Virus record (IMG/VR): IMGVR_UViG_3300045242_000307
Span: 1-31,135 of that record
DNA length: 31,135 nt
Direction: 5' to 3' (one strand)
Source: a virus
The position numbers and the translations under genes are program-made. The notes under the pieces were generated by a model. It worked only from the letters and a program-made list of their open reading frames with translations. It did not search any database and was not told the DNA's origin. Below, in pieces: positions 171-19,016 of this stretch. Each line of letters starts with the position of its first letter. The first letter of the stretch is position 1.

Positions 171-1340
171 TTAGTCAATGATGCGCCACTTGGCGAGCGG
201 CACGGCGTGGTCCTGGCCGCCCTGGGTGAGCTCTAGGCGTATCTGCATGGCCTGCTCGATGCAATCGTCCATGTCGAGGCCGTAGCGGTAGCTACCCGCG
301 CGGCCGATGCTATAGACGCCCGGGGGCATCATCGCGTGGTAGCGCGCGGCGCGGCGCTGCTCGGCCTTGAAGGGCATGGGGTAGTGCTTGCCGTTCCGGC
401 TGGGAATTTCGAGGCCCAACAGCGTGGTCGGGGACTGGTGGCGCGTGAACTTCTTATATTCGACCGCGCGCGTGAACTGCTCACTGTTGGCGTAGTAGAG
501 CATGTAGGTATTGGCCGGGAGGGCCTGCTCCACTGGCAGCACGATGCGGTGGAAATCGCGGCCCATGAATGGCAAGCGGCCATACGTCTCACTATTCATC
601 CAGTCATCAGGCGATATGGTGGCAACCACCAAGTCAAAGGAATGTATTTTACCGTCTACTAAAAATTCTTTTCGACTTCTACTTCGGCATTCAACTTTAG
701 TGTTGAACAGCACCTTGGTCGACTGCGTCGCGAGCGCGAAGTAGTCATCGTAGCCGTTGGCGGCGTGGGGATAGCCGGAAAGCGCGTTGTCCCAAGCGGC
801 GCGTGGGCCGGACTTTAGCGCCACTCCCTTGGGCGACCAGCCGAAGTCATCTATCTCGCGGTTGTCCGCGACGGCCCACATCTTTTTGTTGTAGCCCTCA
901 ACCATCTTGGAATAAAGCGTGGGGCCGACCGAGCGTATCCAGTATTCTTCCAAGTTCTGGGCGTCGCTGGCCGGGGTGATACGGCGCGCCATCATCTCAC
1001 TTTCTACCTTGGCAGCGTCGGGCATCAAGGGTATGTCCGACGTATTGATGGGGTAGGAGTAGAAGGCGTTGTCGCGCTCGACATAGGTGTAGAATTCGTG
1101 CTCCGGGATGGGCCGCAGCGGGATAAGGTCATCCATGTAGGCCCAGACGGCCTCGTTCTGCGTCAAAAAGTGGCGCGGGCCGAAGGTGTGCGGGTGGCCG
1201 CCCCACCACATGGTGCGCACCCCGGCGCCGAGCATGCCGGAGGATTCGACTATGGTGGTATCCCAGCCGCTCATGAGGTGCAGCTGGTGGGACGCAGCGC
1301 AGCCCGCAAAGCCGCCGCCAATGATTAAAGCTTTTTTCAT
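171..1340 (-). CDS. glf: UDP-galactopyranose mutase-like flavoprotein
   Basis: This 389-residue protein resembles UDP-galactopyranose mutase, the cytoplasmic FAD enzyme that converts UDP-galactopyranose to UDP-galactofuranose for surface glycans. The N-terminus has the dinucleotide-binding GGGFAGCAA (residues 8-16) followed by an IVE acidic strand end. Family-like blocks follow: FGPRHFLTQNEAVWAYM near residue 53, SYPINTSDIPL near 94, and EEYWIRSVGPTLYSKMVEGYNKKMWA near 130-155. Length fits the family (about 370-400). The start overlaps the methyltransferase stop as ATGA, so the two are probably translationally coupled. In the C-terminal part, GVYSIGRAGSYRYGLDMDDCIEQA is the expected FAD-contacting segment. 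Whether it acts on UDP-galactose or on another UDP-sugar cannot be told from sequence. It is the last complete gene of a sugar block that also has an epimerase, a cupin and a GT9 enzyme. Confidence 0.85.
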   Translation of the reverse strand: MKKALIIGGGFAGCAASHQLHLMSGWDTTIVESSGMLGAGVRTMWWGGHPHTFGPRHFLTQNEAVWAYMDDLIPLRPIPEHEFYTYVERDNAFYSYPINTSDIPLMPDAAKVESEMMARRITPASDAQNLEEYWIRSVGPTLYSKMVEGYNKKMWAVADNREIDDFGWSPKGVALKSGPRAAWDNALSGYPHAANGYDDYFALATQSTKVLFNTKVECRSRSRKEFLVDGKIHSFDLVVATISPDDWMNSETYGRLPFMGRDFHRIVLPVEQALPANTYMLYYANSEQFTRAVEYKKFTRHQSPTTLLGLEIPSRNGKHYPMPFKAEQRRAARYHAMMPPGVYSIGRAGSYRYGLDMDDCIEQAMQIRLELTQGGQDHAVPLAKWRIID

Positions 1341-1453
1341 CTTTTAAATAACCTCTGGGCCAACGGCCTCATCCGATGCAAAGGCAGCCTCAATCTTAAC
1401 CTCAGCCACAATGGCACCCATTGCTTTAAATGTGGCCTATATTTTTCAACCAT
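1337..1453 (-). CDS. Possible separate small basic protein (alternative reading of the methyltransferase 3' end)
   Basis: If the poly-C tract had 9 or 12 C, the methyltransferase would end at 1446-1448 and this 38-residue frame would be an independent gene. Its ATG at 1453 overlaps that stop (ATGGTTGA) and its own stop overlaps the mutase start (ATGA). Such stop/start overlaps are the rule in this operon. The product would be basic and amphipathic (QWVPLWLRLRLRLPLHRM). In the sequence as given it is in frame with the methyltransferase and is read as its C-terminus. There is no clear ribosome binding site. Confidence 0.35.
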   Translation of the reverse strand: MVEKYRPHLKQWVPLWLRLRLRLPLHRMRPLAQRLFKR

Positions 1454-2377
1454 GGTGGCCGGGTCCGTGGAGCATGACCCACCAGCGCTCATCGGCGCTG
1501 ACCGGGGGGGGGGGCCAGCGGCTAACTCGGTTTGCCAAGCCAGGACTTCGGCCAGCGCAACAGTTAGGTTGGATGGGCGCTCGGTGCCTTCTACCGCTGC
1601 CGGGATGACTTGGTGGCGGTCCAGCGTGGTCTTAACACCTTCTGAACCGTTGAGGGTCTCTAGGCCCCAGCCTTCGACCAGCAGCGGGCAGCCCCAAATA
1701 GAGGTGAGGCGCGCGAGGTAGGCGGCAGCGTCCTTGTGCATTTCGCAGAGCACGTGGTTGGCCGCGACGGCATCGACCGGGAAGTCCTCTAAGGGGGCTG
1801 GATCGAGCAAATAGAATCGCCACCAGGGCACGTGGACCACGCAGCCCGCGTAACTCTCGCGGTTTTCGGTGACGAGGTCCACGAATTTGTCCGCGAAGAG
1901 TCCGGCGAAGATGCGGTTCTGCCAGAGGTAGAACGCCTGGGCGTTCTCCACCACCATGACGGTATAGCCTGTCAGGCCGAGCAGCGCGCTTAGGTAACCC
2001 GAGCCCGGCCCCACCTCCACCACGAGCGCGGGCGGGGCCGCGCGGGCTCGCAAGGCGCGGAAAGCGATGGTGGCGCGGGCCAGCGCGCCGCGCGGCGTAA
2101 CCGGGTGACCATTGGTTAGGCTACGCACCACGCGCGATATCTGGCGCCACCAACTCCACTCCTCCTGGGTCAGGCCGCCGAGCTTCTCGTTGAAATCATC
2201 CTCGAAGCGGCCCTCGTGCATCGCATCGGCCCAGCGCCATAAAGCGCCCGAGCTGGCGGCCCGGGTGGGGTAGCCAATGTAATTAAACAAGACCGGGCGG
2301 CAGGCCTGGATGAGGCGGTTGGGCAAGCCCTGCTCGGCCAGCAACTCGGCGCGGTCGTAGGCGGCGGGCGTGAGCAC
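1337..2377 (-). CDS. SAM-dependent methyltransferase (putative sugar methyltransferase), probable frameshift near the 3' end
   Basis: The 346-codon frame has a class I methyltransferase core: motif I VVEVGPGSGYL at residues 119-129, an acidic strand end (VVEN), and a later DAVAANHVLCEM segment. The GTG start at 2377 overlaps the upstream stop as TAGTG. Its place between sugar-nucleotide genes suggests a glycan substrate, but this is inference. Near residue 290 the coding strand runs through 11 consecutive C (1504-1514). After that tract the frame reads a low-complexity segment (RSAPMSAGGSCSTDPAT). With 9 or 12 C it would instead read SADERWWVMLHGPGHHG and stop at 1446-1448. A separate small ORF starting at 1453 would then overlap that stop. 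The C-terminal 55 residues of the present frame are therefore suspect. Either the tract is length-variable, or it is a sequencing or assembly indel. Confidence 0.75.
   Translation of the reverse strand: MLTPAAYDRAELLAEQGLPNRLIQACRPVLFNYIGYPTRAASSGALWRWADAMHEGRFEDDFNEKLGGLTQEEWSWWRQISRVVRSLTNGHPVTPRGALARATIAFRALRARAAPPALVVEVGPGSGYLSALLGLTGYTVMVVENAQAFYLWQNRIFAGLFADKFVDLVTENRESYAGCVVHVPWWRFYLLDPAPLEDFPVDAVAANHVLCEMHKDAAAYLARLTSIWGCPLLVEGWGLETLNGSEGVKTTLDRHQVIPAAVEGTERPSNLTVALAEVLAWQTELAAGPPPRSAPMSAGGSCSTDPATMVEKYRPHLKQWVPLWLRLRLRLPLHRMRPLAQRLFKR
1504..1514. repeat. 11-base homopolymer (poly-G on +, poly-C in the gene)
   Basis: This is an uninterrupted run of 11 G on the plus strand inside the methyltransferase gene. 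Runs this long slip during replication and are also a common place for sequencing or assembly indels. The frames reached by 9/12, 10 and 11 C differ sharply: a W-rich ending, an immediate stop, and a low-complexity readthrough respectively. Confidence 0.9.
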
Positions 2378-2658
2378 TAGGTCCGCCTAAACTTAACTAC
2401 GCCAGGCTTCTCCCCCGCCCTCGGCAAAGTAGAATAGAGTGTTCGACGCCCCAGATCGGTCAAACCAAAAATAACCGAATTCATACCTATGCGCGGAATG
2501 AGCGGCTGCAAGCCTTTTTGTTCTATAAAACCATCCTCGCACGCTTTCTTCAAATATTCATGTGGACAAAGCCAGACCGGGATATGCGTGTCTTTGCCAG
2601 GAAATTCACGCTCACAAAAGTCAATCCAACCAAGCAATTGAATAAGATCGTTACTCAT
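2377..2658 (-). CDS. Hypothetical protein, 93 aa
   Basis: The ATG at 2658 overlaps the cupin stop as ATGA, which supports this start over an in-frame one further upstream at 2727. The product begins MSNDLIQLLGWIDFCEREFPG, contains a VWLCPHEYLKKACEDGFIEQKG segment and ends with a basic FRRT. No family is recognised. The middle reads like a small winged-helix or phage accessory domain (GFIEQ..LIPRIGMNSVIFGLTDLGRRTL, with LTDLGR typical of a short helix after a strand), but this is weak. It sits inside the sugar block and ends by a one-base overlap with the methyltransferase start. Confidence 0.65.
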   Translation of the reverse strand: MSNDLIQLLGWIDFCEREFPGKDTHIPVWLCPHEYLKKACEDGFIEQKGLQPLIPRIGMNSVIFGLTDLGRRTLYSTLPRAGEKPGVVKFRRT

Positions 2659-3119
2659 GACAAAGCCAGTAGCTGCTTGATGTATTCCTGCTGCTGGGCA
2701 GGATCGGCATCCCTGGCTGGCGCCCATGGCGCGAATTCGCGGTCGGTCTCGCCCAGGAAGGGCCCGGGCTTGCTCTCGTGGTAGACCACCAGCTTGGAAA
2801 CCGGGGTGGTTAGATGCCAGGCGCCCGCGGGGATGAGCATGAGGAACGGGTCGGCATGATGGGCCAGCACCATCTGTTCGATGACTTGGCCGTTGTCGTC
2901 AAAGATAAAGACCGCGAGGTCGCCCCTTATGATATGGAGGGCCTCGGCCTTCGGGGGGGCGACATGGCGGTGCGGCGGAAAGTAGGAGCCGCGATGCTCG
3001 CACACCACCATGCTATGGAACAGGGCCCCGGGGCCCGAGTGCAAGCAGATGCGCTGATTCTGCTTGGTCTTCTGGGCAGTGAAGACCAGCTTGTTAACGG
3101 CCGCCTTGTCAACTTTCAT
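2655..3119 (-). CDS. WbuC-family cupin metalloprotein
   Basis: This 154-residue single-domain cupin resembles the WbuC family, found in O-antigen and other surface-glycan gene clusters. The N-terminal RICLHSGPGALFHSMVV block is typical. The metal-site motif is H50-x-H52 with E59 in PPHRHVAPPKAEALH, and the second histidine comes from PAGAWHLTTP (H102). HESKPGPFLGETDREFAPW is the family-like C-terminal signature. The enzymatic role of WbuC is not established, and I infer only a part in making or modifying a sugar. The ATG at 3119 overlaps the epimerase 3' end by 11 bases. Its stop overlaps the next start as ATGA. Confidence 0.85.
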   Translation of the reverse strand: MKVDKAAVNKLVFTAQKTKQNQRICLHSGPGALFHSMVVCEHRGSYFPPHRHVAPPKAEALHIIRGDLAVFIFDDNGQVIEQMVLAHHADPFLMLIPAGAWHLTTPVSKLVVYHESKPGPFLGETDREFAPWAPARDADPAQQQEYIKQLLALS

Positions 3120-4020
3120 AGTTCACCACCTCGGCGGCGTAGCGATCGATCATCGCGCCGATTTCCTGCGGCGCATAGCCCCAATGGCTTATGGCGCGCG
3201 CGGAGGAGATAAGAAAGGGTGGCTTGGCCGGGAGGGCCTCGGTCAGTTCGATGGTCTGGCCGAGGCCGGCAGCGAGGCGCGTAATGGCCTCACGCACCGT
3301 TATCTGACCAGCGGCGGCGCAGGTGACGGAGTCCAATCCGCGCGGCATTTGATCACGCGCTAAAACGCGCGTAATTAACGCGCAGAGGTCCGCGATATGC
3401 ACCGCGTTATTGAAAGGGGCGTCGAGATTGTAGGCTTTGATCGCCACAGGTCTAGCGCCGTGATTGCTGTGCAATCTCGCCGCTAGACTTGGGAGCCAGT
3501 TGCGCGCGCTGGCGCGCAAGCCGATGATACCGGGCAGCCGCAGCGCGAGCGCGGGTATGTCGAGACCGGCCAAGATGCGCTCGCCCATATACTTGCTGGC
3601 GCCGTAGGGGTCGGGGTTGATGCGGAGTGTTTCCTCGTGCATCAGCGAAATGGCATTATGTTTACAATGTTCGCCATGGACGCAGATGGACGAGAAGAAG
3701 ATGACGATGCGCGGGCGCCAGCGCGCGAGGGCATCGGCAAGGTAGATGAAGGAGGCGACGTTGTCCTCGGCGATCTTGTAGGCGTCGTGCCAGGGCCCGG
3801 CCGCGGCGCAGTGGATAACGGCCTCGGGCGCGGGGCCGGGGAGACTGCCGATCTCGGCCAGGTCCCAATCGTATAAGCGCACGCCCAGCGCGTGCAGGGA
3901 CTGGTTCTCGGGCGAGCGCGCGCGGGCCAGCGCGACCACGTGGGTGTTAGGCAGCGCGGCCAGGGCGCGCGCTACGTGCGAGCCCGCGAAGCCCCCGGCG
4001 CCGGTGACGAGCACGCGCAT
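3109..4020 (-). CDS. NAD-dependent epimerase/dehydratase (extended SDR)
   Basis: This is a 303-residue extended short-chain dehydrogenase. The nucleotide-binding GAGGFAGSH lies at residues 7-15, after a MRVLVTG strand. The catalytic pair is Y139-GAS-K143, with the preceding serine in FFSSICVHG near 110. AVIHCAAAG matches the family strand-4 pattern. Members act on nucleotide sugars as 4-epimerases, 4,6-dehydratases or 4-reductases, and the sequence does not decide which. The length is slightly short for a full dehydratase, so epimerase or reductase fits better. Gene order with a cupin, methyltransferase, mutase-like protein and GT9 enzyme supports a glycan role. The start follows the preceding stop by a few bases without a strong ribosome binding site, so it is probably read by coupling. 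Confidence 0.85.
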   Translation of the reverse strand: MRVLVTGAGGFAGSHVARALAALPNTHVVALARARSPENQSLHALGVRLYDWDLAEIGSLPGPAPEAVIHCAAAGPWHDAYKIAEDNVASFIYLADALARWRPRIVIFFSSICVHGEHCKHNAISLMHEETLRINPDPYGASKYMGERILAGLDIPALALRLPGIIGLRASARNWLPSLAARLHSNHGARPVAIKAYNLDAPFNNAVHIADLCALITRVLARDQMPRGLDSVTCAAAGQITVREAITRLAAGLGQTIELTEALPAKPPFLISSARAISHWGYAPQEIGAMIDRYAAEVVNYES

Positions 4021-4024
4021 AAAT

Positions 4025-4216
4025 TTAATTCAGGCCGACGGGACAATGGCCATGCGGGCAACAATACATCATTTTGTTTCCCAAAACGATTCCACACTTT
4101 GGACAAGTAGGATCACGGTAATTAGAACGCGGACGCGGAAAATTTTCTTCTTTATTATCTTTCCAAGGCCATCCACTACGCCGTATCATCTCTTGCCAAT
4201 ATCCCATGATAGTCAT
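4025..4216 (-). CDS. Small zinc-ribbon-like protein, 63 aa
   Basis: The C-terminal part has PTCPKCGIVLGNKMMYCCPHGHCPVG, with CxxC then CC and a further Cys and His. This could bind one zinc ion. The N-terminal half is basic and aromatic (MIRRSGWPWKDNKEE). The strong ribosome binding site GGGAGGGTTGC before the ATG at 4216 supports the start. No precise family is recognised. It precedes the epimerase by a few bases. Confidence 0.65.
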   Translation of the reverse strand: MTIMGYWQEMIRRSGWPWKDNKEENFPRPRSNYRDPTCPKCGIVLGNKMMYCCPHGHCPVGLN

Positions 4217-4370
4217 GCAACCCTCCCGTTAAGCGTAGGCATAGGCGTCCCGCAAGGCAACTTTCTCCGATATTCCTGGATCGCTGTTGCCGCTACGTGG
4301 GCCGGCTAGGGGGCTAGCCGCTGTGGGACAAGAGCAAGGTTAGCGCCGCGCGCGGGCGCGGCAAAGCTGT
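4217..4370. other. Non-coding gap with inverted repeats
   Basis: No credible ORF is seen here. On the minus strand, just after the stop of the 70-aa gene, there is a GC-rich palindromic stretch (GCCGCGCCCGCGCGCGGCGC) and then a second small inverted repeat (GGCTAGCCCCCTAGCC). Neither is followed by a T-run, so an intrinsic terminator is not supported. They may act as mRNA-stabilising or processing structures. Confidence 0.4.
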
Positions 4371-4583
4371 TTATTGGGTGGTATCAATAAGGCGAATAAC
4401 GTGGGCCACCGCTGCAAGACCATTGGCGGCTTCTTCCAGCGTACTCGCATCGCGCCGCAAATTAGCACCGCCAAACCATAGCTTAGCGTAACGCTCGCGC
4501 AATCTCACAGCAGAGCGGCGCCAGCGCTGCTCCAAATCTTCGGCGCGCTTGGCAGCTTCCTCGCGGACTTGTTCAGGTGTCAC
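4371..4583 (-). CDS. Hypothetical helical protein, 70 aa
   Basis: The GTG at 4583 is preceded by AAGGCAAG. The product is mostly charged helix (VREEAAKRAEDLEQRWRRSAVRLRERYAKLW), then TLEEAANGLAAVAHVIRLID, so it may form a small helical hairpin or coiled coil. There is no membrane segment and no family is recognised. It lies between the small membrane protein and the zinc-ribbon gene on the same strand. The 260 bases upstream (4584-4844) hold no convincing gene. Confidence 0.6.
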   Translation of the reverse strand: MTPEQVREEAAKRAEDLEQRWRRSAVRLRERYAKLWFGGANLRRDASTLEEAANGLAAVAHVIRLIDTTQ

Positions 4584-4844
4584 AACATCTTGCCTTTATA
4601 AATAAGATAAGAGCAGGCGGCTTGCTTAGGGCCGCAGCATTGTCTCTCTGCCCGATAATAAACTCGCTAGAAACCCACCGTTTGTTTCAACGGACTTCTG
4701 CGCCTAGCAACGTTGCCTTGCCCTCGGGCCTAGCGGGGCGTGGGCTGGTCCTCGGCATTGACTACGTACGCTTGCCAACCGGCTCCGGCTGCCCACCACT
4801 GCTCTAAGCTACTAATGCCCCCGCACGTGGGCGCGGCAAAGCGC

Positions 4845-4970
4845 TTACTGCGGCGGGGCCCCATAGATATAGGCCAGCCCCAGCAGCAAAATGGTGGCCG
4901 CGACCAGGATGACAGTGCGCGCGGTGCCCTGGCCGATGACATTGGCGGGGAAGGGCTGGCGGTGCGGCAT
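4845..4970 (-). CDS. Small single-pass membrane protein, 41 aa
   Basis: This short gene starts at ATG 4970, three bases after the GT9 stop. After a basic, Asn/Gly-containing N-terminus (MPHRQPFPANVIGQGTAR) comes one hydrophobic segment TVILVAATILLLGLAYIY (about residues 19-36), then GAPPQ. This looks like an inner-membrane anchor. Phage proteins of this size include holin-like, superinfection-exclusion and glycosyltransferase-helper peptides. The position after a glycosyltransferase favours a membrane partner, but nothing proves it. Confidence 0.6.
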   Translation of the reverse strand: MPHRQPFPANVIGQGTARTVILVAATILLLGLAYIYGAPPQ

Positions 4971-4973
4971 GGG

Positions 4974-5840
4974 CTAGGCGGCGGCTGCGGCGCTGGCGCA
5001 GCGCAAGCGGGCAAGGCTGATAGCGAGATCGGCGATGGCCGGGGGGCTGAAGGAGCGCACGCAATCACCGTGGCCGAGGGGGCAATCCCAATAGGTGGTC
5101 GGGGTCGTGAAGCGTGACTCGCACCCGCCGCAGCCCAGCGGCGTGGGTAGTATGTGGGTGGGCGCGTCGTTGGGGCGTAAGTGGAGCACGTGGCCGGGGT
5201 GAGCCATGGTCGTCATGGCGATTACCGGGGTACCGGTGGCCTGGGCCAGGATCATCGGGCCGCTTTCGGAGCAAATGAAGCAGTCGGCGGAGGCGATTAG
5301 GGCGGCTTGCTGGGCCAGGGTCAGGCGGCTGCGCGTGTCGTGCACATTGGTAAGTCCATCGTGGTCTTGATGGGTGCCCGTGACCACGACATTGAAGTTT
5401 TGGGCCGTGAGTAAATCGACCAATTGCTGCCAGAACTCCAGGGGTAGAGTGCGGATGGGCCAGTTGCGGCAGGGGTGGATGACGATCGTGCCAGGGACCG
5501 GGTAGGAGTCCGGATAATTGAAGTAGAGGCGATGCTCGGTATTGCGATCGCCGAAAGCTACCTCCGAGTAAGCGTCGATTGGGTGCAACTGGCGCAGCCG
5601 GTTCTCGAAGGCCATATTGAGATCGATTTCGCGCGTGTAGATTAGATTAGAAGAAAGCGAAGCGCCGGCAACGTCGGAGTTGGCCCAGAAGACCTGGGGG
5701 TAGTCGGTCTGCACCCAGATTTCGTGGCGCGGGTTCTCCGCACGCAAGCGGTGGATGATCGGAGTGGTTTCGAGGACGTCGCCGAGGGCGCCGGTGCGCT
5801 TGACCAAAATCGAGGGTGGTGAAGAATGGATGATGGTCAA
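4974..5840 (-). CDS. Glycosyltransferase family 9 (heptosyltransferase-like)
   Basis: The protein resembles the ADP-heptose:LPS heptosyltransferase family (GT9), cytoplasmic inner-leaflet enzymes that extend the LPS core. N-terminal ILVKRTGALGDVLETTPIIHRLRAENP (GALGD about residues 17-21) is the hallmark acceptor-side loop. IVIHPCRNWPIRTLP and the later SADCFICSESGPMILAQATGTPVIAMT match the C-terminal donor-binding half. A Cys-rich tail (CGGCESRF..YWDCPLGHGDCV) follows. There is no ATG near the conserved start. I choose TTG 5840, which overlaps the upstream stop (TTGA) and has AAGGG nearby. TTG 5867 is an alternative adding nine residues. The donor need not be heptose. Phage GT9 enzymes could modify host surface glycan or another acceptor. 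Confidence 0.8.
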   Translation of the reverse strand: MTIIHSSPPSILVKRTGALGDVLETTPIIHRLRAENPRHEIWVQTDYPQVFWANSDVAGASLSSNLIYTREIDLNMAFENRLRQLHPIDAYSEVAFGDRNTEHRLYFNYPDSYPVPGTIVIHPCRNWPIRTLPLEFWQQLVDLLTAQNFNVVVTGTHQDHDGLTNVHDTRSRLTLAQQAALIASADCFICSESGPMILAQATGTPVIAMTTMAHPGHVLHLRPNDAPTHILPTPLGCGGCESRFTTPTTYWDCPLGHGDCVRSFSPPAIADLAISLARLRCASAAAAA

Positions 5841-6037
5841 TGCTTTGCTACCCTTGGTATGAAGCAATCAGAAATAAGATGTGTGCCATCTTGCGGAACT
5901 GAAGTGGTACAAGCCGGACAAGGCATGCCCGCACCGCACTCGCATGCGAAGAAATCGTTGCTCACCCCCGCCCACGGCAGCGAAGGATGATTTTCACAAA
6001 CAACTCCGGTGTCATCGCATTGGGAACATTTACTCAC
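5837..6037 (-). CDS. Small Cys-rich zinc-binding protein, 66 aa
   Basis: The GTG at 6037 overlaps the upstream stop as GTGA. The protein has a CSQCDDTGVVCENH segment and then CECGAGMPCPAC: several CxxC and CxC pairs as in DnaJ-type zinc ribbons (the CDDTG core resembles the C-x-x-C-x-G-x-G repeat). One or two zinc ions are plausible. Small proteins of this kind are frequent in phages of Alphaproteobacteria. No function is known. Confidence 0.65.
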   Translation of the reverse strand: MSKCSQCDDTGVVCENHPSLPWAGVSNDFFACECGAGMPCPACTTSVPQDGTHLISDCFIPRVAKH

Positions 6038-7846: not shown

Positions 7847-7872
7847 TTAGGCAGTCAACACTCCCTGAAGGA
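7847..7872 (-). CDS. Major capsid exon 5 (26 nt)
   Basis: The last two bases of a Phe codon are followed by LQGVLTA and TAA. This fits the end of related coat proteins, where two residues separate the SN from LQG. Only this short exon lies 3' of intron 4. Without splicing, the reading frame would end in the intron with FIWSALTNYL. Confidence 0.85.
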
Positions 7873-10800
7873 CATTTGTTCGCTGCCGGGGCTCTTTATC
7901 CCCGGTCTCCATATGTCACCATATGGTTCGGACTATCTCATCACGCTTGTGCGTGTCGGGCGCTCGTGGGACCATTATTCTTTCGTCAGGTCCTAGTCTC
8001 TACGCCTTCCGCAGCCCGTTACGTCTGCGGCTTGGCACGGTATTGCCTCGGAGAGGGTTCACCGTTTCACCCGATTTTCCTTACAGATAGTTTGTAAGGG
8101 CGCTCCAAATAAACGCATTCGAGAGTGTCATGTTGCCCGCCCAACCAATTAAACGGATCATAGCGTCCTGATTCACCGAAAATCGATCGGGATCAAGGGG
8201 CACCATGTTCCGCCTACTGTGCGGGCGCCAATGCAAATATTTGGTGTTCAACATGTACATCGTTGTACTGGGAGCACCACCTACTGCACTGGTCGATGAC
8301 GACAGCTGGGGCGGCAGCGGGTCGGCTGCGAAGCCCTGGAAGCCACCGTCGAGCACCACGTCGGCGTTGAGGTACTTGAGGCTTTGGAATCCGGCCTCGG
8401 CCATGTCCGGGGCCGCATTCTCGGTCTGGATGCGCTGGATCGCTTGCAGCGCATTCAGGTAGTACTTGTACATCACGTTGTCGGCGATGATCAAGTCCGG
8501 GTAGTCGCGCCCGCGGATGAGCGTGACCCAGAGCGAGTCCATCTGCTGAAGGATGGTCGAGCTGGAGAGCACCGCCCCGCCATTGGTACCGGCGGACCAG
8601 CTTTGGTTCTGCCAGAAGGACCACTGCGAGCGATCGATGCCGCCGACGGTGCCGCTGGTCGGCGTCGCGGCGACGAGGAGTTGCAGTCCGCCGACGGAGT
8701 TGGTCACGGTCCCGTCGCCGTAGATGCCCTGGGAGAGGCCGTTCATGAAGGTCGATTTGTTAGCGCGCGCTTGTTTATAGCGCGCTTCTGCATGTTGCCA
8801 TGCAGTCCAGACTATCTCATCCCTTTCGGGTCGGGCGCTCGTGGCGGGATTATTCTTTCGTCACCCGCTAGTCGTTACACCTTCCGCTGCCCTGGCCCCC
8901 TTAGCCGGGGGTTACATCAGCGGCTCGGTTCGGTATTGCCCGCTGGGGGTGTCCACCGAATTCACCCGATTTACTACCTGCTACTATTTGTTAGGTCGTA
9001 ACAAATAATTGCAGGTGGGACTCCAAATAAACAGAATCCTCTGCGTTCATGATTCGGCTCTCAAGGAGATCTATAATTGCCTCCTCTCCGCTATTTTGCA
9101 ACTCTTCCAATCCACTGATGCTAACGGCAACTGCCGCTTGGCGAATTGGATATTCGGCTGCGGTAAATACCTGAGAGGGAGCGATGTTCAACGTCTGGTA
9201 GCCGCTGTCGATTTGTTAGTTGCGCGCTTGTTTATAGTGCGCTTCTGCATGTCGCCATGCAGTCCGGACTATCTCTTCACCTTATTTGGTGCCGGGGGCT
9301 CGTGGGCGGGGTTATCGTTGGGACTCACCCGCCTAGTCTCTACACCTTCCGCAGAACCTTGGCCCACTGCGGCTCGGCTCGGTGTTGTCTCTGCTCTAGC
9401 AATCAACTGGCCGAAGAAACTATCGGGAGGCCATTCGCGCCGCATCCACTGCAACGCTAAAGCCCGCCAGTCAGCTGCTCGATTAGAGATATTCACCGAA
9501 TTCTCCCGGTTGAGTGGCTAGCGTTTTATTTGCTGACCACTGGAAGGTTTGATTGTCCGCATAATTAAGCTCCTGGACGATCGTCCTTCCGCCTCCGAAT
9601 GTTTTCAAGTTGCCCTTGCGGGTCAGTCGGAGTAGTGCAGCGTTATTCCTCGACATATTATCAGCGAGTTCCGATTATTTGTTACCGCGCGCTTGTTTAT
9701 AGCGCGCTTCTGCATGTTGCCATGCAGTCCAGACTATCTCTTGTTGGCACGTGCCTTAGCGCGCTTACGCGCTTTGGCTTCCTTACTCTTGCGTGCATTA
9801 GCACGGGCTAATCCCGCTAACCGAGCAGCACGATATTCTGGATTTTGCCACCGCGCCTTAGAACGGGCCGATTGTGCAGCCTTCCATTCAGGCGTCTTCA
9901 TTACCTCGGCCATGGCCTGTATGCCCTTGGCCTGAGTTTCTGGCAAATGCTCCATCTGCTTGGCACGGTATTCCGGGTCTTGCCAAAGTTCTTTTGTCCT
10001 AGAACCTGTCTTACAGTTGGCGCGCCATTCCGGATCCTTACGGCACTCCCGTAAAGCAGCCAACCCCTTAGACAAGTTTTCTTCGCGCACCATTCTGACC
10101 TTAGAGCCGGGGATGAACCAATATGAGTTAACCTTAACTCTACCCCGGTCTAAGCTTTCACGCCGCACTGCCTGTATCTCTGGGATTAGCCACTGCTCGC
10201 GGCAATTTTTGCTCTGATTTTCCCTTTTCAAGGGATCAGTGTCCCAAAGTTCATGCATAGCGGCGCGGGCCTTGTCGAAAATGGCCGCGCGCTTCGCCAA
10301 GAATTCTTCATCTTGGCGGGCGTTAGTTTTGGCTCGACCCTTGGCCAGTCCCGCTCTTACCGTTGCTGCAAATTCTGCGTTCTCTTCCCAGCGCTTTTTA
10401 GTCACTGCGGACATATAAGGGCTAGGCACAACGGAAGAAACTGGATTGGCTAAGTTATAACCAAACTCCCTTTCAACTGCACGCAACTGATCTATCCACC
10501 ATTGCTCCCGCTCCCTACGATCGACTACCGGGCACCTTTCGATTATCTCGAACGTAAAATTCTCAGCGCCATACTTACGCCAAGCGTTCTGAAGATAACG
10601 ATTGCCATGCTTACCCTGGATTAACTCGACTGTATGGCCCCTATGTCTTTTAGAGGCCTGAACGGAAGACCCTACATAAACCTTGTTGGTGACAAGGTTA
10701 CGCATAAGGTAGATTTCAGCATATTCATGCATGTGCCAACCCGGGTGCTCATGGGGCCATTATTCTTTCGTCAGGCCCTAGTCGTTACACCTGCCACGAC

Positions 10801-10977
10801 CCTGCGGAACTATACCCTCGCTCTGTAGCGTGGTAAAGTACCTTCTATTCGTGGATTGGCTCGGCATTACCCGCAAGGGGTGTCCACCGAATTCACCCAG
10901 TTTTCCACGGGCCAAACTCAACCCGTGCGATTACGCAACGTAGTGGTGACGATCTCGCTGAGATTAGGAAAGGCCAT
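7847..10977 (-). CDS. Major capsid protein, split by four group I introns
   Basis: The mature frame is the join of 10977-10921, 9671-9536, 9208-9033, 8752-8113 and 7872-7847 on the minus strand: 1035 nt, 344 residues. It begins MAFPNLSEIVTTTLRNRTG and ends SNAFLQGVLTA. The spliced protein reads like coat proteins of podovirus-type phages. Examples are GGGRTIVQELNYADNQTFQWYSGYQTL across the exon 2/3 junction, FTAAEYPIRQAAVAVSISG, and DPDRFSVNQDAMIRLIGWAGNMTLSNA near the C-terminus. All four junctions restore frame exactly (phases 0, 1, 0, 1), and every exon ends in T as group I splicing requires. The ribosome binding site AAAGGAA (10986-10992) is 8 bases before the ATG. The scaffold, portal and terminases lie upstream on the same strand. 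The gene cannot make full-length coat protein without RNA splicing. Confidence 0.93.
7873..8112 (-). ncRNA. Group I intron 4 of the capsid gene (240 nt)
   Basis: The 5' site follows the T at 8113. The guide GCGC (8103-8100) can pair with GCGU of the exon, a short P1. The core element GUGCCAAGCCGC and the R-type GUAGAGACUAGGACC are present. The P7 halves are GACUA (7998-7994) and UAGUC (7935-7931), and a P7.1-like hairpin follows GACUA. The intron ends in G at 7873. Its 3' domain (hairpins CCAUAUGGUGACAUAUGG and CCGGGGAUAAAGAGCCCCGG) differs from that of the other three introns. There is no ORF inside. It is the smallest and most diverged member of the set. Confidence 0.88.
8113..8752 (-). CDS. 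Major capsid exon 4 (640 nt, main coding block)
   Basis: It encodes residues 124-336 and the first base of codon 337. It begins TFMNGLSQGIYGDGT, right after the S of exon 3. It carries GTVGGIDRSQWSFWQNQSW, WVTLIRGRDYPDLIIADN, ALQAIQRIQTEN and the VPLDPDRF..LIGWAGNMT end of the coat fold. A gene finder sees it as a separate 221-residue ORF starting at the internal ATG 8746 and running into intron 4 to a false stop. Confidence 0.92.
8753..9032 (-). ncRNA. Group I intron 3 of the capsid gene (280 nt)
   Basis: The guide GGAGUCC (9024-9018) pairs with GGAUUCU at the exon 3 end, giving a seven-pair P1 with U-G at the splice site. CCGAACCGAGCCGC is the Q element and GUGUAACGACUAGCGG the R element. 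The P7 halves are GACUA (8873-8869) and UAGUC (8814-8810). A P7.1-like hairpin GCGGG..CCCGC and a short P8 hairpin CCCGAAAGGG follow. The 3' domain has the CUGCAUGGCAACAUGCAG hairpin and a GCGCGC..GCGCGC hairpin, and the intron ends AACAAAUCG. The extra P7.1 hairpin suggests subgroup IA. There is no ORF. The exons around it join as EDS/TFM. Confidence 0.92.
9033..9208 (-). CDS. Major capsid exon 3 (176 nt)
   Basis: It begins with the AC of the split Tyr codon 65 and encodes SGYQTLNIAPSQVFTAAEY, then AAVAVSISGLEELQNSGEEA and LLESRIMNAEDS (to residue 123). The reading matches the N-arm and spine-helix region of related coat proteins. The end GAUUCU pairs with the intron 3 guide sequence. Confidence 0.9.
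9209..9535 (-). ncRNA. Group I intron 2 of the capsid gene (327 nt)
   Basis: Exon AGUGGU pairs with guide GCCACU (9518-9513). The Q-like ACCGAGCCGAGCCGC and R-like GUGUAGAGACUAGGCGGG are present, and P7 is GACUA (9338-9334) with UAGUC (9271-9267). The 3' domain (hairpin CUGCAUGGCGACAUGCAG, then GCGCAC..GCGCGC, then CUAACAAAUCG) is nearly identical to introns 1 and 3. About 120 bases of extra sequence lie between the P3/P4 region and the Q element. It holds no convincing ORF and may be the remains of an insertion. Splicing rebuilds Tyr65 from T and AC. Confidence 0.9.
9536..9671 (-). CDS. Major capsid exon 2 (136 nt)
   Basis: It encodes ELADNMSRNNAALLRLTRKG, then NLKTFGGGRTIVQELNYADN and QTFQW, plus the first base of Tyr65. 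This is the conserved segment after RTG in related coat proteins. It has no start codon of its own and is too short for a normal gene call, so it is easily missed. Confidence 0.9.
9672..10920 (-). ncRNA. Group I intron 1 of the capsid gene (1249 nt), with homing endonuclease
   Basis: Exon CACGGGU pairs with guide GCCCGUG (10912-10906), a seven-pair P1 ending in U-G. P7 is GACUA (10783-10779) and UAGUC (9736-9732). The P7.1-like hairpin GGGCC..GGCCC and the P3 strand GAGCACCCGGG follow the first P7 half. The P8 stem is GUUGGCAC paired with GUGCCAAC, and the endonuclease ORF sits in its loop. The 3' domain has the same CUGCAUGGCAACAUGCAG and GCGCGC hairpins as introns 2 and 3. The intron ends AACAAAUAAUCG. 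Splicing joins RTG to ELADN. Confidence 0.92.
9734..10732 (-). CDS. GIY-YIG homing endonuclease inside intron 1
   Basis: This 332-residue enzyme would cut intronless capsid alleles and drive spread of intron 1. The GIY-YIG fold is at the N-terminus: EIYLMRNLVTNKVYVGSSVQ (residues 6-25), the helix with KRHRGH near 28-33, and RCPVVDRREREQWWID with the likely catalytic Glu near 76, then GYNLANP. The long C-terminal part has repeated W-x-(D/N)PE(Y/W)(R/K)A units (KDPEWRAN, QDPEYRAK, KTPEWKAA, QNPEYRAA), like NUMOD3-type DNA-binding repeats, and a very basic end (KSKEAKARKRAKARANKR). The ATG at 10732 directly follows the 5' strand of P8. The TAG stop (9736-9734) is part of the P7 UAGUC strand, so ORF and ribozyme core overlap. 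It appears intact. Confidence 0.93.
   Translation of the reverse strand: MHEYAEIYLMRNLVTNKVYVGSSVQASKRHRGHTVELIQGKHGNRYLQNAWRKYGAENFTFEIIERCPVVDRREREQWWIDQLRAVEREFGYNLANPVSSVVPSPYMSAVTKKRWEENAEFAATVRAGLAKGRAKTNARQDEEFLAKRAAIFDKARAAMHELWDTDPLKRENQSKNCREQWLIPEIQAVRRESLDRGRVKVNSYWFIPGSKVRMVREENLSKGLAALRECRKDPEWRANCKTGSRTKELWQDPEYRAKQMEHLPETQAKGIQAMAEVMKTPEWKAAQSARSKARWQNPEYRAARLAGLARANARKSKEAKARKRAKARANKR
10921..10977 (-). CDS. Major capsid exon 1 (57 nt)
   Basis: The ATG at 10977 has AAAGGAA 8 bases upstream. It encodes MAFPNLSEIVTTTLRNRTG, a well-conserved coat N-terminus. The frame then meets a TGA in the first codon of the intron. The exon end CACGGGU pairs with the intron guide sequence. 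Confidence 0.92.
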
Positions 10978-12198: not shown

Positions 12199-12497
12199 TG
12201 CATCATGCTCCCCGGCGCGGGCTGCTGCTCGTCCTCGTCCTCGCTGCCGCAGGAGCACAATTCTTGGTACCAGGAGTCGCGCTGCTCGGGCGAGCGGAAG
12301 AACATGTAGCCTTCGCAGTAACCACGCGAAGCCAACGCCGCTGTGGGCACCACCGTTATCTCGCTGATGCCGTCCCCGTTCCACGCCAACACCTCCATCA
12401 GGTAGTGCTCCGCGCCCACGCGCGCGAGTACCGCGCCCTTGCAAGCGCCATCATCCTCCAAGCGCAGGAAGCTCATGCCCACCAAATCCTCGGCCAT
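12195..12497 (-). CDS. Hypothetical acidic protein, 100 aa
   Basis: The ATG at 12497 follows GGAGCTGAGG. The product has MAEDLVGMSFLRLEDDGACK, a GAEHYLMEVLAWNGDGISEITVVP beta-rich segment, FFRSPEQRDSWYQELCSCGS and an acidic Gln/Pro-rich end (EDEDEQQPAPGSMMQ). The fold looks like a small beta barrel with an acidic tail. Unknown family. Confidence 0.6.
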   Translation of the reverse strand: MAEDLVGMSFLRLEDDGACKGAVLARVGAEHYLMEVLAWNGDGISEITVVPTAALASRGYCEGYMFFRSPEQRDSWYQELCSCGSEDEDEQQPAPGSMMQ

Positions 12498-12512
12498 CCT
12501 CAGCTCCCTAAA

Positions 12513-12629
12513 TTAGCGTGCGGGTCGATCGAATTGACGGCCAATGAGCAAGTCTAACCATGGAGGAAGCCGATCCGATCTTTCGTTGACCCAAGGCCCG
12601 CACTCCCCGGGTAAGGTACCCTCCTCCAT
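12513..12629 (-). CDS. Possible small protein, 38 aa
   Basis: The open frame from ATG 12629 to TAA 12513 starts MEEGTLPGECGPWVNERSDR and continues LPPWLDLLIGRQF. A weak TAGGATTTTGC site precedes it. It fills an otherwise empty gap between the secreted-protein gene and the 100-aa gene. Composition is plausible, but there is no other support. Confidence 0.35.
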   Translation of the reverse strand: MEEGTLPGECGPWVNERSDRLPPWLDLLIGRQFDRPAR

Positions 12630-12664
12630 GCAAAATCCTAGCCCCGCGCGCGGGCGCGCGCTAC

Positions 12665-13051
12665 CTAGCTGCTGGGCCTCGGCGCAAAAAAGCAGCGCCG
12701 CGAGCCATCCGGGCGCTTGCAGCGCCAGAAAGCGCCGTCGGGCGAAAGCTGCGCTTCGCTATATGGCACGATCTCATTGCGCGCGGGCGGCGCCACCTCG
12801 CCCCTTATAGCTTTTTCGACCCAATCGGCCGCGCGCACCGCAACGTGGTAACCGTCCGCGCGCGCTACGATCCAGGCCGGGTCGAGCACCATGCAATCGC
12901 CCGCGCCGCAGCACCACTCCCCGGCCGCATTCCTCAGCCCCTGCCGGCTAATCCAGCTGTCGTGCGGGTGCGTTTGGCGCGGGATGGCCAGCAGCGCGAG
13001 CGTGGCCAGCAGCGCCACCAATATCAATGGCCCGATGCGCCAGCTATCCAC
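12665..13051 (-). CDS. Membrane-anchored or secreted Cys-containing protein, 128 aa
   Basis: The GTG at 13051, just after the scaffold stop, has GAGGG upstream. TTG 13066 is an alternative. An N-terminal hydrophobic segment IGPLILVALLATLALLAI (about residues 6-23) acts as signal or anchor. The exported part has DSWISRQGLRNAAGEWCCGAGDCMVL, a Cys cluster seen in small exported proteins of Rhizobiales and their phages, and a second pair in WRCKRPDGSRRCFF. Four or five Cys suggest disulfides in the periplasm. Function is unknown. A role in the cell envelope during infection is possible. Confidence 0.7.
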   Translation of the reverse strand: MDSWRIGPLILVALLATLALLAIPRQTHPHDSWISRQGLRNAAGEWCCGAGDCMVLDPAWIVARADGYHVAVRAADWVEKAIRGEVAPPARNEIVPYSEAQLSPDGAFWRCKRPDGSRRCFFAPRPSS

Positions 13052-13052
13052 G

Positions 13053-14318
13053 TCACCGACCCTCAACCTCCGCGCGCGCCTCCATAAGGCTTTCGCGCAC
13101 GGACTTGCCCTTACCCTTGGGCTGGGCCACCGCCGGCCCGGCCGCGCCCGGCGCGCCGCCAGTCACCGAAACCCCCGCCTTACGCGCCTTGTCGGCTTCG
13201 GCCTGGACCGCCGCTGCGCGCGCCGAGGCTGCGGCCGCTCGCTTGGCCTCGGCGGCCTTGGCCTGGTCGGCCAGCACCTTCTCGCGCACGCCCGGCACTG
13301 CCCAAATGGCCGTCTCGTAGGCGCCGTCTAGGTCCACGCGGCCCTCCTTGAGCGGCACTTCGCCCGAGGCAATTAGGCGCGACATGGTCTGGCGCACCTC
13401 CTCAAAGTGCGGCTTGTCCTTGGCCCAGGCCGCCAACACCTCGTGCGTCTTGGCCTCATTTTGCTGAGCGAACGTCTGCTCCAGAGTGCCGAAGCGCTGA
13501 TTAATCTGGGCTTCCAGCTGCTGCTGGCGCGCCTGCATGGCATCGATATACTGCTGAATGGCCGGGGAGACTGCTTCGGGTTGCCCAGGGGCAGGCGCCG
13601 CTGCCCCATTAGCACCAGCAGCAGGCACCTGCGGGGGCGCTGCGCCGCCCGCTTGGGCGAACTGCGCCAAATCGATATTGAAGCTCTTGGCCAGCGCCGG
13701 GAAGGCCTGGGTCGGGTTGCTGGCTAGCGCGCGGAACCAGCCAAACAGCTGGTCTATGGCCTGAGCGCGCGTGTGGCCGTGCTGCCTAATGGCAGCGTCG
13801 TGCGGGCTTATGGCGCGGTCGATATCGGCGTAGCCGGCCTTGAGCTGGTCCACGCCCTTTTGCACATCGGCCTCGCGCTTGGCCACCGCCGCGCGCACAG
13901 GCTCGGGCAGCTCGCCCCAGGCCGCCTTGGCCTCCTTGGACCAGCCCGCGGGCGCCGCAGGAGCGCCCGTAGCCGGGGGGGCCTCGGGGGTAGTAGCGGC
14001 CTCGCCCGACGCACCCTCCTGTGGCGCCTCCCCGGCCGCCGCAGCGGCTCCCGGCTCAGCGCTCGCCTCGCCCTCCCCGCTGCGCTTCTTAAACCTACCT
14101 TTTTCTCCCCGCTCGGGCGCCGCCGGCTTCTCCGGCTCGCGCGCGGCGTCGAAATTGGCCTGGAGCTCCTCGCGGATGCTACGGCGCTCGGCCGCAGGCT
14201 GGCGGCCTTCGCCAACGGGCGCTTCGGGCGGCGGCGCGCCGCCGCCAGTCTCCGGGGGCTCGGCGGCACCGCTGACGTCGGAATCGTAACAGGGCAGGTA
14301 GCGATCGAGCCAATTCAT
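13053..14318 (-). CDS. Scaffolding protein
   Basis: This 421-residue Ala/Glu/Gln-rich protein lies between portal and coat, the usual place of the scaffold. The N-terminal 110 residues are low complexity (EPPETGGGAPPPEAPVGEG, then acidic and Ala-rich). A conserved-looking block follows (APAGWSKEAKAAWGELPEPV, then AAVAKREADVQKGVDQLKAG and YADIDRAISPHDAAIRQHGH). A Pro/Ala linker and a long coiled coil come next (YIDAMQARQQQLEAQINQRF), then a C-terminal helix with basic end (GKGKSVRESLMEARAEVEGR). A basic C-terminal helix fits coat binding. Identification rests on position, composition and resemblance to scaffolds of podovirus-like phages. It should be lost from mature heads. Confidence 0.85.
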   Translation of the reverse strand: MNWLDRYLPCYDSDVSGAAEPPETGGGAPPPEAPVGEGRQPAAERRSIREELQANFDAAREPEKPAAPERGEKGRFKKRSGEGEASAEPGAAAAAGEAPQEGASGEAATTPEAPPATGAPAAPAGWSKEAKAAWGELPEPVRAAVAKREADVQKGVDQLKAGYADIDRAISPHDAAIRQHGHTRAQAIDQLFGWFRALASNPTQAFPALAKSFNIDLAQFAQAGGAAPPQVPAAGANGAAAPAPGQPEAVSPAIQQYIDAMQARQQQLEAQINQRFGTLEQTFAQQNEAKTHEVLAAWAKDKPHFEEVRQTMSRLIASGEVPLKEGRVDLDGAYETAIWAVPGVREKVLADQAKAAEAKRAAAASARAAAVQAEADKARKAGVSVTGGAPGAAGPAVAQPKGKGKSVRESLMEARAEVEGR

Positions 14319-14352
14319 CTGTCATTCTCCTCTGGGCGGCGGGTGCGGCCCG

Positions 14353-14526
14353 TTAAGCTATGCGCTTGCGGTCTATCGTCGTCTTCTCGCTGCGCTCGCG
14401 CTCGGCTTCCGCCTCGCGGGCGCGCGCTACGCGCTTCAGGTGCTGGGCGTATTCCTCATCCAGCCCCAGCGCCTTGACTTCACCCGGAGCGAGATAGCAG
14501 CGGTTGGGATTGGGCACCTTGCTCAC
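14353..14526 (-). CDS. Small charged helical protein, 57 aa
   Basis: The GTG at 14526 overlaps the preceding stop (GTGA). The product begins VSKVPNPNRCYLAPGEVKAL and then forms one long charged helix (EEYAQHLKRVARAREAEAER, ERSEKTTIDRKRIA). It lies immediately before the scaffold and could be a second assembly helper, by position only. Confidence 0.6.
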   Translation of the reverse strand: MSKVPNPNRCYLAPGEVKALGLDEEYAQHLKRVARAREAEAERERSEKTTIDRKRIA

Positions 14527-14768
14527 AGACCCTGACCCATCAACGCCTTGAGCATGGCCCTAACATCAACATCTCCCGGCTGCTGCTCCATGGACTGGTC
14601 GTAAGTCACCCCCGGCACATGCTCGCCCAAATTAAGCGGCCCATGGATCGGGTTGCCCTGGCTATCGTAGCCTATGACCGGGGGCGCGAACATCGGCGGC
14701 ATGCGGGTATTGTCGTTGGTAACAATATCGCTCGGTCCATAGGTCGAAGGCGGAGGAACCATCAACAC
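14523..14768 (-). CDS. Hypothetical Pro-rich protein, 81 aa
   Basis: The GTG at 14768 overlaps the upstream stop as TAGTG, with GAGGGG upstream. The product is Pro/Gly/Met-rich and largely disordered (PPPSTYGPSDIVTNDN, then PPMFAPPVIGYDSQGNPIHG) with a short C-terminal helix VRAMLKALMGQ. Similar short disordered proteins occur near portal and scaffold genes. Function unknown. Confidence 0.6.
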   Translation of the reverse strand: MLMVPPPSTYGPSDIVTNDNTRMPPMFAPPVIGYDSQGNPIHGPLNLGEHVPGVTYDQSMEQQPGDVDVRAMLKALMGQGL

Positions 14769-15067
14769 TAATGTCCCCTCAACTCGCGGATGGCATTGCG
14801 GATGGCCTGGCGCCGCGCGTCCCGGCTGAGCACCACCGGCTTGCGCGGGCGCAGCAGCGTGGCCACCTCGTTGCCGACCTCAATGCATCCCGCCGCGCGC
14901 GTGGCCACGCGGAACGCGGCCTTGCTCGTATACATGCGGTTGTCTGCCATATGGCGCGTGGCGTCCATCTCGTCGCGAATTACCTGGACCGCCGCGTTGG
15001 CCGCATGCAGCGGCGCGGCGCGCGCGCGGTCCACCAGCTTGCCCTTGCGCATCACAAATACGGTCAC
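14768..15067 (-). CDS. Hypothetical protein near the portal gene, 99 aa
   Basis: The GTG at 15067 overlaps the exonuclease stop (GTGA). An in-frame ATG at 15091 is less likely. The start VTVFVMRKGKLVDRARAAPL resembles a small conserved phage head-region protein that begins with V-M-R-x-G-K-L-V-D and then A-A-P-L-H. The rest is helical and basic (IRDEMDATRHMADNRMYTSK, RDARRQAIRNAIRELRGH). Probably a virion or assembly accessory. Confidence 0.65.
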   Translation of the reverse strand: MTVFVMRKGKLVDRARAAPLHAANAAVQVIRDEMDATRHMADNRMYTSKAAFRVATRAAGCIEVGNEVATLLRPRKPVVLSRDARRQAIRNAIRELRGH

Positions 15068-15513
15068 GCGGCCAGCCTCATCTCGTTCCACTTCATCAGC
15101 GCGCGGGCATCGGCCAGGGCATTGTGCGGCTGGGCCGAGACCGGCTGGCCGGGGGGAGTCTTTAAGATAGTAATGCGACAGGCGAAGTCGAGGCTACTAC
15201 CATAATCAGGACCTTGAAGCAGCGAACAAAAGTGCTGGGCATCGACATGCCAATCACAAATAATTTCAGGATTGCTGAACTGCTGGATAAAACATTGGAA
15301 TTCACTACGAAAAATGAGGGGTCGTGTAAACTCCACGCCGAGCACCGGGATGACATGCTTTGCTACCCATGGATCCCACGGCTTATAGCGTGGGCTCTCG
15401 GGCAAATCGCGCGGATCTTGCGCCGCATACCATGCGGCCCCATCCGCAATCAATGCCAATGAGATAAGATCGCCGCCATGGCCATTGAACTCGGTATCCA
15501 GATAGAAGCGCAC
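15064..15513 (-). CDS. DnaQ-like 3'-5' exonuclease (RNase H fold)
   Basis: This is a 149-residue compact DEDD-type exonuclease. Motif I is FYLDTEFNGHGGD (D6, E8) and a middle acidic motif is ICDWHVDAQHF (D87/D91). Motif III is PHNALADARAL (H130, D135), the DEDDh form. It would remove nucleotides from DNA or RNA 3' ends. The GTG start overlaps the portal stop (TAGTG), so it is made with head proteins rather than with replication genes. A job in genome-end processing or host nucleic-acid degradation is possible, but not shown. Confidence 0.82.
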   Translation of the reverse strand: MRFYLDTEFNGHGGDLISLALIADGAAWYAAQDPRDLPESPRYKPWDPWVAKHVIPVLGVEFTRPLIFRSEFQCFIQQFSNPEIICDWHVDAQHFCSLLQGPDYGSSLDFACRITILKTPPGQPVSAQPHNALADARALMKWNEMRLAA

Positions 15514-18017: not shown

Positions 18018-18020
18018 CGG

Positions 18021-18476
18021 TCAATTGGGCAGCGTCTCGAAGGAAAAGAGGCAATGCGCCGTGGGGGTGATGGTGAAGGGCCCGGTGCTAGAGCAAACCG
18101 CCACGAAGCCCGCCTTAGTGCCCAGGCGGTTGGAGCCGTTGAAGCCGAAAAAATTAACGATGCTGAGCACCGAGGAGACCGACATCTGGTACCACTTCAT
18201 GATGCAGGGCCGCGGCGAGGTGGCGATAGTGCAACCCGTGGCCACGATGGTGCCCGGCGCAGTGGCAGAGTCCATCAGCACCACCCAGGCCGCGCCGGTG
18301 CCGTCGGTATTGACCTGGCCGCCATAGACGTTGCACCCCGCAGTGCAAAAGACGTGGCTGCCTTCCAGCGCGCCGGAAGTCTGGGTTTGGGCATGCGCGT
18401 TGCCCGGCGCTAGCACCAGTGCGGCGGCGCCCGCGATCAACGCACCGCGCGCAGCGCCGCGATGGATGATGCTCAC
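18021..18476 (-). CDS. Exported Cys-containing protein, 151 aa
   Basis: The GTG at 18476 overlaps the preceding stop (GTGA). A clear signal peptide (RGALIAGAAALVLAPGNAHA) ends at AHA-QT near residue 29. The exported part is Gly/Thr/Ser-rich and beta-like, with five Cys (HVFCTAGCNVYGG, TGCTIATSPRPCIMKW, VAVCSS), which suits periplasmic disulfides. Such a protein directly upstream of portal is odd for a head operon. It may alter the host envelope or receptor. No family is recognised. Confidence 0.7.
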   Translation of the reverse strand: MSIIHRGAARGALIAGAAALVLAPGNAHAQTQTSGALEGSHVFCTAGCNVYGGQVNTDGTGAAWVVLMDSATAPGTIVATGCTIATSPRPCIMKWYQMSVSSVLSIVNFFGFNGSNRLGTKAGFVAVCSSTGPFTITPTAHCLFSFETLPN

Positions 18477-18817: not shown

Positions 18818-19016
18818 TTTGTTGACCCACCGGATACCAAGGTCCCTGTGTAAGGCCACCTTGCCAATTATCAGACCAGCACATGGCGTTCTGATACAAC
18901 CAGAACCACCCCGGTAAGCGCCCACCCAGAATCTTGTCACCCTGGGACGCTACATGGCCAATTCCATAGCAAACCCAAGCCATAGCAATGCACAGATAAT
19001 CACGCAACAAGCGCAT
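18801..19016 (-). CDS. Small membrane protein, 71 aa
   Basis: The ATG at 19016 is preceded by GGAG and overlaps the methyltransferase 3' end by 17 bases. The N-terminus MRLLRDYLCIAMAWVCYGIGHVAS carries one amphipathic or membrane helix. The rest is Trp-rich (LPGWFWLYQNAMCWSDNWQG, GPWYPVG). The WSD-x-x-QG-x-x-x-GPW pattern is familiar from small phage membrane proteins near head genes. Function unknown. Confidence 0.65.
   Translation of the reverse strand: MRLLRDYLCIAMAWVCYGIGHVASQGDKILGGRLPGWFWLYQNAMCWSDNWQGGLTQGPWYPVGQQNDHAT

Follow-up and report, generated by a model that had tools for sequence, protein, structure and literature searches.

Sugar genes in the late structural operon of a soil phage and their possible role in capsid glycosylation

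Sugar genes carried by phages are commonly explained from their names. For the 24 lipopolysaccharide (LPS) genes of cyanophage P-SSM2 it was proposed that they block superinfection (PMC2984593), and the glycosyltransferases of mycobacteriophages, e.g. Maravista, led to the suggestion of capsid glycosylation (PMC11256854). In bacteria, Maf-dependent flagellin glycosylation is cytoplasmic (PMC4065374), the Maf protein of Magnetospirillum (PDB 5MU5) is a putative pseudaminic acid transferase (PMC9298399), and in Caulobacter FlmG the TPR part binds flagellin and the GT-B part is required for the pseudaminic acid modification (PMC7591256). In this article we analyse a block of sugar genes in a soil phage, the whole IMG/VR virus contig IMGVR_UViG_3300045242_000307 of 31,135 bp, which is called the window below. 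About 100 relatives yielded a positional argument for action on the virion, and we lean to the view that the block feeds modified, possibly furanose and methylated, sugars into a capsid-glycosylation system. Virion use is preferred because protein-type glycosyltransferases recur in one slot behind a predicted decoration protein.

On the minus strand the window carries, in the order of transcription, the terminase small and large subunits, a C-methyltransferase, an Mx8-type portal, a virion structural/scaffold-like protein, the major capsid protein (MCP) and the sugar block, where the order is GT9, epimerase, WbuC, methyltransferase-like and Glf-like. The sugar genes are listed here together with their state in two related contigs, G001 and G002 (ORF, open reading frame; SDR, short-chain dehydrogenase/reductase; UGM, UDP-galactopyranose mutase; SAM, S-adenosylmethionine):

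171-1340, minus strand: UDP-galactopyranose-mutase-like flavoprotein, 389 aa (PF03275 E=1.4e-26; PDB UGM 3hdq E=6e-19)
1337-2377, minus strand: methyltransferase-like protein, 346 aa, class I SAM motif VVEVGPGSGYL (PF13489 E=0.036, below the cut-off)
2377-2727, minus strand: small ORF without family; a different ORF at its place in G001
2655-3119, minus strand: WbuC-family cupin, 154 aa (TIGR04366 E=6.7e-32, 110.1 bits against a cut-off of 42; 86% identical in G001)
3109-4020, minus strand: NAD-dependent nucleotide-sugar epimerase/dehydratase-type SDR, 303 aa (PF01370 E=3.9e-22; phrog_540 nucleotide-sugar epimerase E=6e-21)
4974-5867, minus strand: GT9-type glycosyltransferase, about 290 aa, start uncertain (PF01075 E=4.6e-10; N-terminal RTGALGDVLETTP motif)
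19000-20232, minus strand: sugar 3-C-methyltransferase-like protein between terminase and portal (PF08421, PF13489 and PF08484, the last at 1.4e-48; present in G001 and G002)

The first-pass annotation of the window, whose interpretation is partly supported overall, had placed five named sugar genes with overlapping starts and stops behind the head genes on one strand, and a C-methyltransferase near 19-20 kb. All five genes are present there on the minus strand, and the C-methyltransferase is convincing by its three Pfam domains and its match to PDB 4rv9. The overlaps hold for most neighbours (4 nt between the glf and methyltransferase genes, 1 nt between the latter and the small ORF, 11 nt between WbuC and the epimerase), but about 950 bp with two small ORFs lie between the GT9 gene and the epimerase, so the string is broken at this point.

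That the block is phage-encoded and belongs to a structural operon, as the annotation had claimed, was borne out by the same arrangement in an independent contig, by purifying selection and by the solubility of all products. G001, the independent contig (90,564 bp), has the same block in the same order and on the same strand (MCP, GT9, SDR, WbuC, methyltransferase-like, Glf, DUF5672, S190, TPR-GT, S255), its block proteins being 74-86% and its portal 92% identical to those of the window, and the 18.5-kb contig G002 repeats the MCP-to-GT9 end. In the comparison of the window with G001 (Nei-Gojobori) omega was 0.17 for Glf, 0.26 for the methyltransferase-like gene, 0.19 for WbuC, 0.24 for the SDR and 0.21 for GT9, with 0.22 for the C-methyltransferase; the structural genes ranged overall from 0.10 to 0.25 (portal, MCP and terminase 0.12, scaffold-like 0.25). 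The block values, 0.17-0.26, fall within the structural-gene range and the frames are intact, therefore the block genes are maintained under purifying selection. A survey of related phages for the same gene set had been proposed as well: the whole block was recovered in G001 and its GT9 end only in G002, and it is rare otherwise, since in the IMG/VR searches Glf, SDR and WbuC matched G001 only and GT9 matched G001 and G002 only. In G002 a sigma-70-like factor and a ParB-like protein stand between the capsid gene and GT9 (L046 2540-3241 and 1606-2643, minus strand).

With the alignment of the MCP, 80 loci were retrieved from viruses and 28 from cellular assemblies; those assemblies that bear a name belong for the most part to Proteobacteria (Paraburkholderia, Rhizobium, Nitrosovibrio and others), and there is a Bdellovibrionaceae metagenome-assembled genome besides. 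The common order in these relatives is MCP, S190, a slot, S255, S120 and S330. In 68 loci the S190-S255 slot could be classified: it was empty (about 50 bp) in 29, held an MptE/Maf-like protein in another 29 (three of these were called with an overlapping start and were first classed as other), a TPR-GT protein in nine and a different ORF in one. The MptE-like protein (PF01973) either stands by itself or is joined to methyltransferase or GT2 domains in a fusion, and the TPR slot protein combines TPR with a GT9-like domain. Glycan-type genes were found in 38 of 69 S190-S255 intervals, in 9 of 78 S255-S330 intervals and in 0 of 84, 0 of 96, 0 of 83 and 0 of 13 elsewhere, where it should be emphasized that the query set was drawn from slot genes, the picking rule was slightly unlike that of the 68-locus count, and the locus set does not include the window lineage. 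Because of the bias of slot-derived queries the unlabelled ORFs of the remaining late intervals were clustered, and 74 representatives were compared with Pfam. These contained no glycosyltransferase and no sugar-nucleotide family; a single FkbM methyltransferase came up, together with hydrolase domains of the fibre type. The nine cases in S255-S330 are second MptE-like copies (L111, L113, L115, L117, L120, L121, L122, L124, L125), which suggests a second acceptor or a duplicated cassette. On the MCP tree the state of the slot changed at least 10 times, against 27 with shuffled labels; the slot states cluster by descent, yet they have turned over repeatedly. Furthermore, a nonulosonic-acid type pathway stands beside the MptE-like protein in two of the classified slots (L099, which is G003, 12231-18253; L102 6804-13348) and in G017 (50581-58377), with NeuB, a cytidylyltransferase of CMP-sugar synthetase type, a NeuC-type 2-epimerase, a DegT aminotransferase and GNAT; for L102 and G017 some of these genes were named via similarity to scanned genes.

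The profile of the slot MptE-like protein matched Maf (PDB 5mu5) at 4e-15 and the MptE enzymes (8sd5) at 3e-5, the alignment covering the central domain only, and by this comparison the protein appears closer to Maf than to the MptE enzymes. In G001 the TPR protein has Pfam TPR matches, and its AlphaFold model (pLDDT 87.6) is predicted to consist of an N-terminal TPR solenoid and a C-terminal GT-B domain; its best PDB matches in Foldseek are SPINDLY and OGT (E=4e-12), with a low TM-score (~0.34) over the two-domain length, and its GT domain gave nothing against PDB by sequence. Its likeness to FlmG is one of layout, TPR plus GT-B. TPR-GT homologues are common in one Caulobacterales assembly, where the loci are short and no flagellin neighbour was recognisable. 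S190 is predicted to be a capsid decoration protein: the leading PDB matches of the G001 model (pLDDT 89) are capsid decoration/head-fibre proteins (the Pam3 capsid, 8hdt_G, the phi29 head fibre base, and HFTV1, Sf11, XM1 and TW1 capsid proteins), with a best E=1.6e-4 and TM 0.46-0.51, and its sequence profile gave nothing against PDB.

The family names of the sugar proteins are of uneven strength: those of WbuC, the SDR and the C-methyltransferase are strong, those of Glf-like and GT9-like are good at the superfamily level, and that of the methyltransferase-like protein (74% identity to its G001 counterpart, omega as above) is weak. The Glf-like protein passes PF03275 (93.9 bits against a cut-off of 26.3) and has PF13450 and a GGGFAG FAD-binding motif at its N-terminus, but it fails the equivalog TIGR00031 (70.6 bits against 303.75) and is therefore named Glf-like. 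Its Y150, W155, R180, R291, Y320, R347 and Y353 align with identical residues of Klebsiella UGM (3gf4), at positions which we take to be catalytic in UGM; compared with 3gf4 the GPHIFHT motif is changed to GPRHFLT, and one extra residue is inserted close to the YRY-LDMD motif at the C-terminus. Identity is 82% to the G001 counterpart and below 30% to phage and plasmid homologues (plasmid at most 29%), and no close bacterial relative was found in the genome contigs searched. The window and G001 proteins are near-identical save for two divergent patches, at about residues 113-128 and 217-250. Conversion of UDP-Galp to UDP-Galf by this protein is putative. The SDR scored 79 bits on PF01370 (cut-off 20.9). 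The GT9-type protein scored 39.7 bits on PF01075 (cut-off 22), is 84% identical to its counterpart in G001 and 74% to that in G002, and lies below the heptosyltransferase equivalog cut-offs (TIGR02201 37.8 bits against 170.2, others lower); its profile gave weak matches only in PDB, therefore the acceptor is not readable from homology. The solved structure nearest to the C-methyltransferase is D-mycarose 3-C-methyltransferase (4rv9, E=7e-74 over residues 2-404), and it has the three-domain architecture and full-length similarity of the MtmC/TcaB9 sugar 3-C-methyltransferases. The presence of the Glf-like and 3-C-methyltransferase-like families points to a sugar that might be furanose, branched or methylated. 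WbuC and the methyltransferase-like protein had no match among the annotated phages searched. By Kyte-Doolittle hydropathy, applied only to the block proteins, no transmembrane-like stretch was found, and the block contains no flippase, polymerase, initiating or membrane-anchored/lipid-linked transferase.

We propose that, once the late genes are transcribed, host nucleotide sugars would be converted by the Glf-like mutase, the SDR and the methyltransferases to an uncommon activated sugar, which may be a furanose and may carry C- or O-methyl groups. In the cytoplasm the GT9-type enzyme (together with the DUF5672 protein and the TPR-GT-B protein in G001) would then attach it to a virion protein. 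The likeliest acceptor would be the S190 decoration protein, encoded beside the TPR transferase; to judge from the close relative G001, both genes probably lie just past the end of the window contig. More tentatively, and with somewhat less conviction than for the block itself, we suggest that a large group of tailed phages has an exchangeable capsid-glycosylation cassette, in which a decoration protein and a slot for Maf-type/FlmG-type O-glycosyltransferases would serve to swap virion sugars, some members having a whole nonulosonic-acid pathway and the window lineage a furanose/methyl-sugar block just upstream. If this is true, flagellin-type glycosylation chemistry would operate on capsids, with possible effects on stability, surface adsorption and recognition, and S190 can be named as a concrete acceptor candidate.

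Several points weigh against virion glycosylation. The window record stops 170 bp after glf, and S190 and the TPR transferase are seen in G001 only. In the window lineage the block sits in the MCP-S190 interval and not in the transferase slot of the relatives. The fold match of S190 is modest by the values given above, and S190 is Ser/Thr-rich in filled and empty slots alike, with no clear difference, therefore its composition does not mark it as the acceptor. The GT9 family is best known for its part in the synthesis of the LPS core. A complete route to a nucleotide sugar was not recognised within the block, so host sugars would be needed, and glycosylation of S190 or of another virion protein is putative.

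The main rival, second to virion glycosylation and in our judgement unlikely, is that the host surface glycan (LPS core or O-antigen) is remodelled during infection, which would keep released or competing phages from adsorbing to the infected cell or to its debris. O-antigen clusters contain WbuC and Glf, GT9 is the LPS heptosyltransferase family, the relatives in cellular assemblies come largely from Gram-negative bacteria, and the superinfection-blocking proposal for P-SSM2 is a precedent; however, the block has none of the membrane-bound or polymerising functions listed above, it is located in the late structural operon near the decoration gene, and the adjacent slot in the relatives holds protein-type transferases. 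The annotation had offered both uses, and while glycosylation of the virion is favoured from the fixed slot behind S190 in the relatives, a block of superinfection at the host surface gained no positive evidence. It is still less likely that one phage-made nucleotide sugar serves virion proteins and host glycans together: the three transferase types of G001 (GT9, DUF5672, TPR-GT) could serve separate acceptors, but either acceptor is putative.

Sugars meant for hypermodified phage DNA are a very improbable explanation. The TAGT (TET-associated glycosyltransferase) family is linked to DNA base glycosylation and has a member in G001 (L006 12770-13576, minus strand, PF20691 E=1.6e-17), but this gene is far off, outside the late structural genes, and no transferase of the block belongs to a DNA-modifying family. 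Least credible of all is that the block is decaying cargo, bacterial contamination or an assembly chimera, the last two of which the annotation had named as findings that would overturn it. The rarity of the block among viral contigs speaks for such an origin; against it stand the synteny in an independent contig, the repeated MCP-to-GT9 end in G002, the omega values and the intact frames, hence contamination or chimerism is unlikely.

Further features of the structural operon are:

7850-10977, minus strand: MCP gene with five predicted exons (10977-10921, 9671-9537, 9206-9036, 8752-8111, 7870-7850) and four introns
15513-18017, minus strand: portal protein, Mx8 type, the anchor of the structural operon (phrog_12082 E=2e-170)
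21433-22938, minus strand: terminase large subunit (phrog_38 E=1.5e-101)

The MCP exons were obtained from spliced alignment to an uninterrupted relative. Three of the four introns match group I in Rfam, one above the gathering score (7909-8122, 60.6 bits) and two under it (9245-9577, 43 bits; 8788-9012, 41 bits), and a GIY-YIG endonuclease (9734-10732) is located inside the first intron. The same method gave about 6 exons (about 5 introns; L004 12315-15146) in G001 and about 9 (about 8 introns; L046 3780-7420) in G002, where tblastn puts the first exon at another position. Mycobacteriophage LittleE was reported to have a single intron in its capsid gene (PMC3706429). An RNase H-like protein (phrog_2259; 15064-15513, minus strand) follows immediately after the portal gene, and a NusG-like protein (phrog_6386 antiterminator; 29139-29741, minus strand) has counterparts in several relatives. 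The phosphoheptose isomerase label for 23597-24145 (minus strand), before the terminase, was not adopted: phrog_1238 matched at 4.6e-10, but Pfam gave a weak HAD match only.

Clusters of sugar genes in phages are already known, and capsid glycosylation has been suspected before (PMC11256854). In the open-access literature searched we found no decoration-linked slot for Maf-like/TPR-GT-B enzymes together with nonulosonic-acid or furanose/methyl-sugar modules, and nothing on point about phage nonulosonic acid or decoration-protein glycosylation. Like P-SSM2, the phage described here carries several sugar-nucleotide and glycosyltransferase genes; in P-SSM2, however, these form two clusters with a host-surface proposal, whereas the window block lies inside the late structural operon by the decoration gene. 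With Maravista it shares phage glycosyltransferases and suggested capsid glycosylation, but phages and hosts are different, and here there are a decoration-linked slot, Maf-like and TPR-GT-B enzymes and sugar-synthesis genes. The Glf-like protein has the fold family, FAD motif and catalytic-type Arg/Tyr/Trp residues of UGM, and differs from it in the altered GPHIFHT motif, the low identity of its phage and plasmid homologues and a score far under the equivalog cut-off. The flippase or lipid-linked transferase of gtr-type, membrane-dependent O-antigen modification is missing from the block. Flagellin O-glycosylation by Maf and FlmG resembles the system of the relatives in having a soluble cytoplasmic transferase, with an MptE/Maf core or TPR plus GT-B, and a NeuB-type pathway adjoins it in some of the phages; in contrast to flagellin, the presumed acceptor here is a virion protein, and the window lineage has Glf, SDR and WbuC in place of the nonulosonic pathway.

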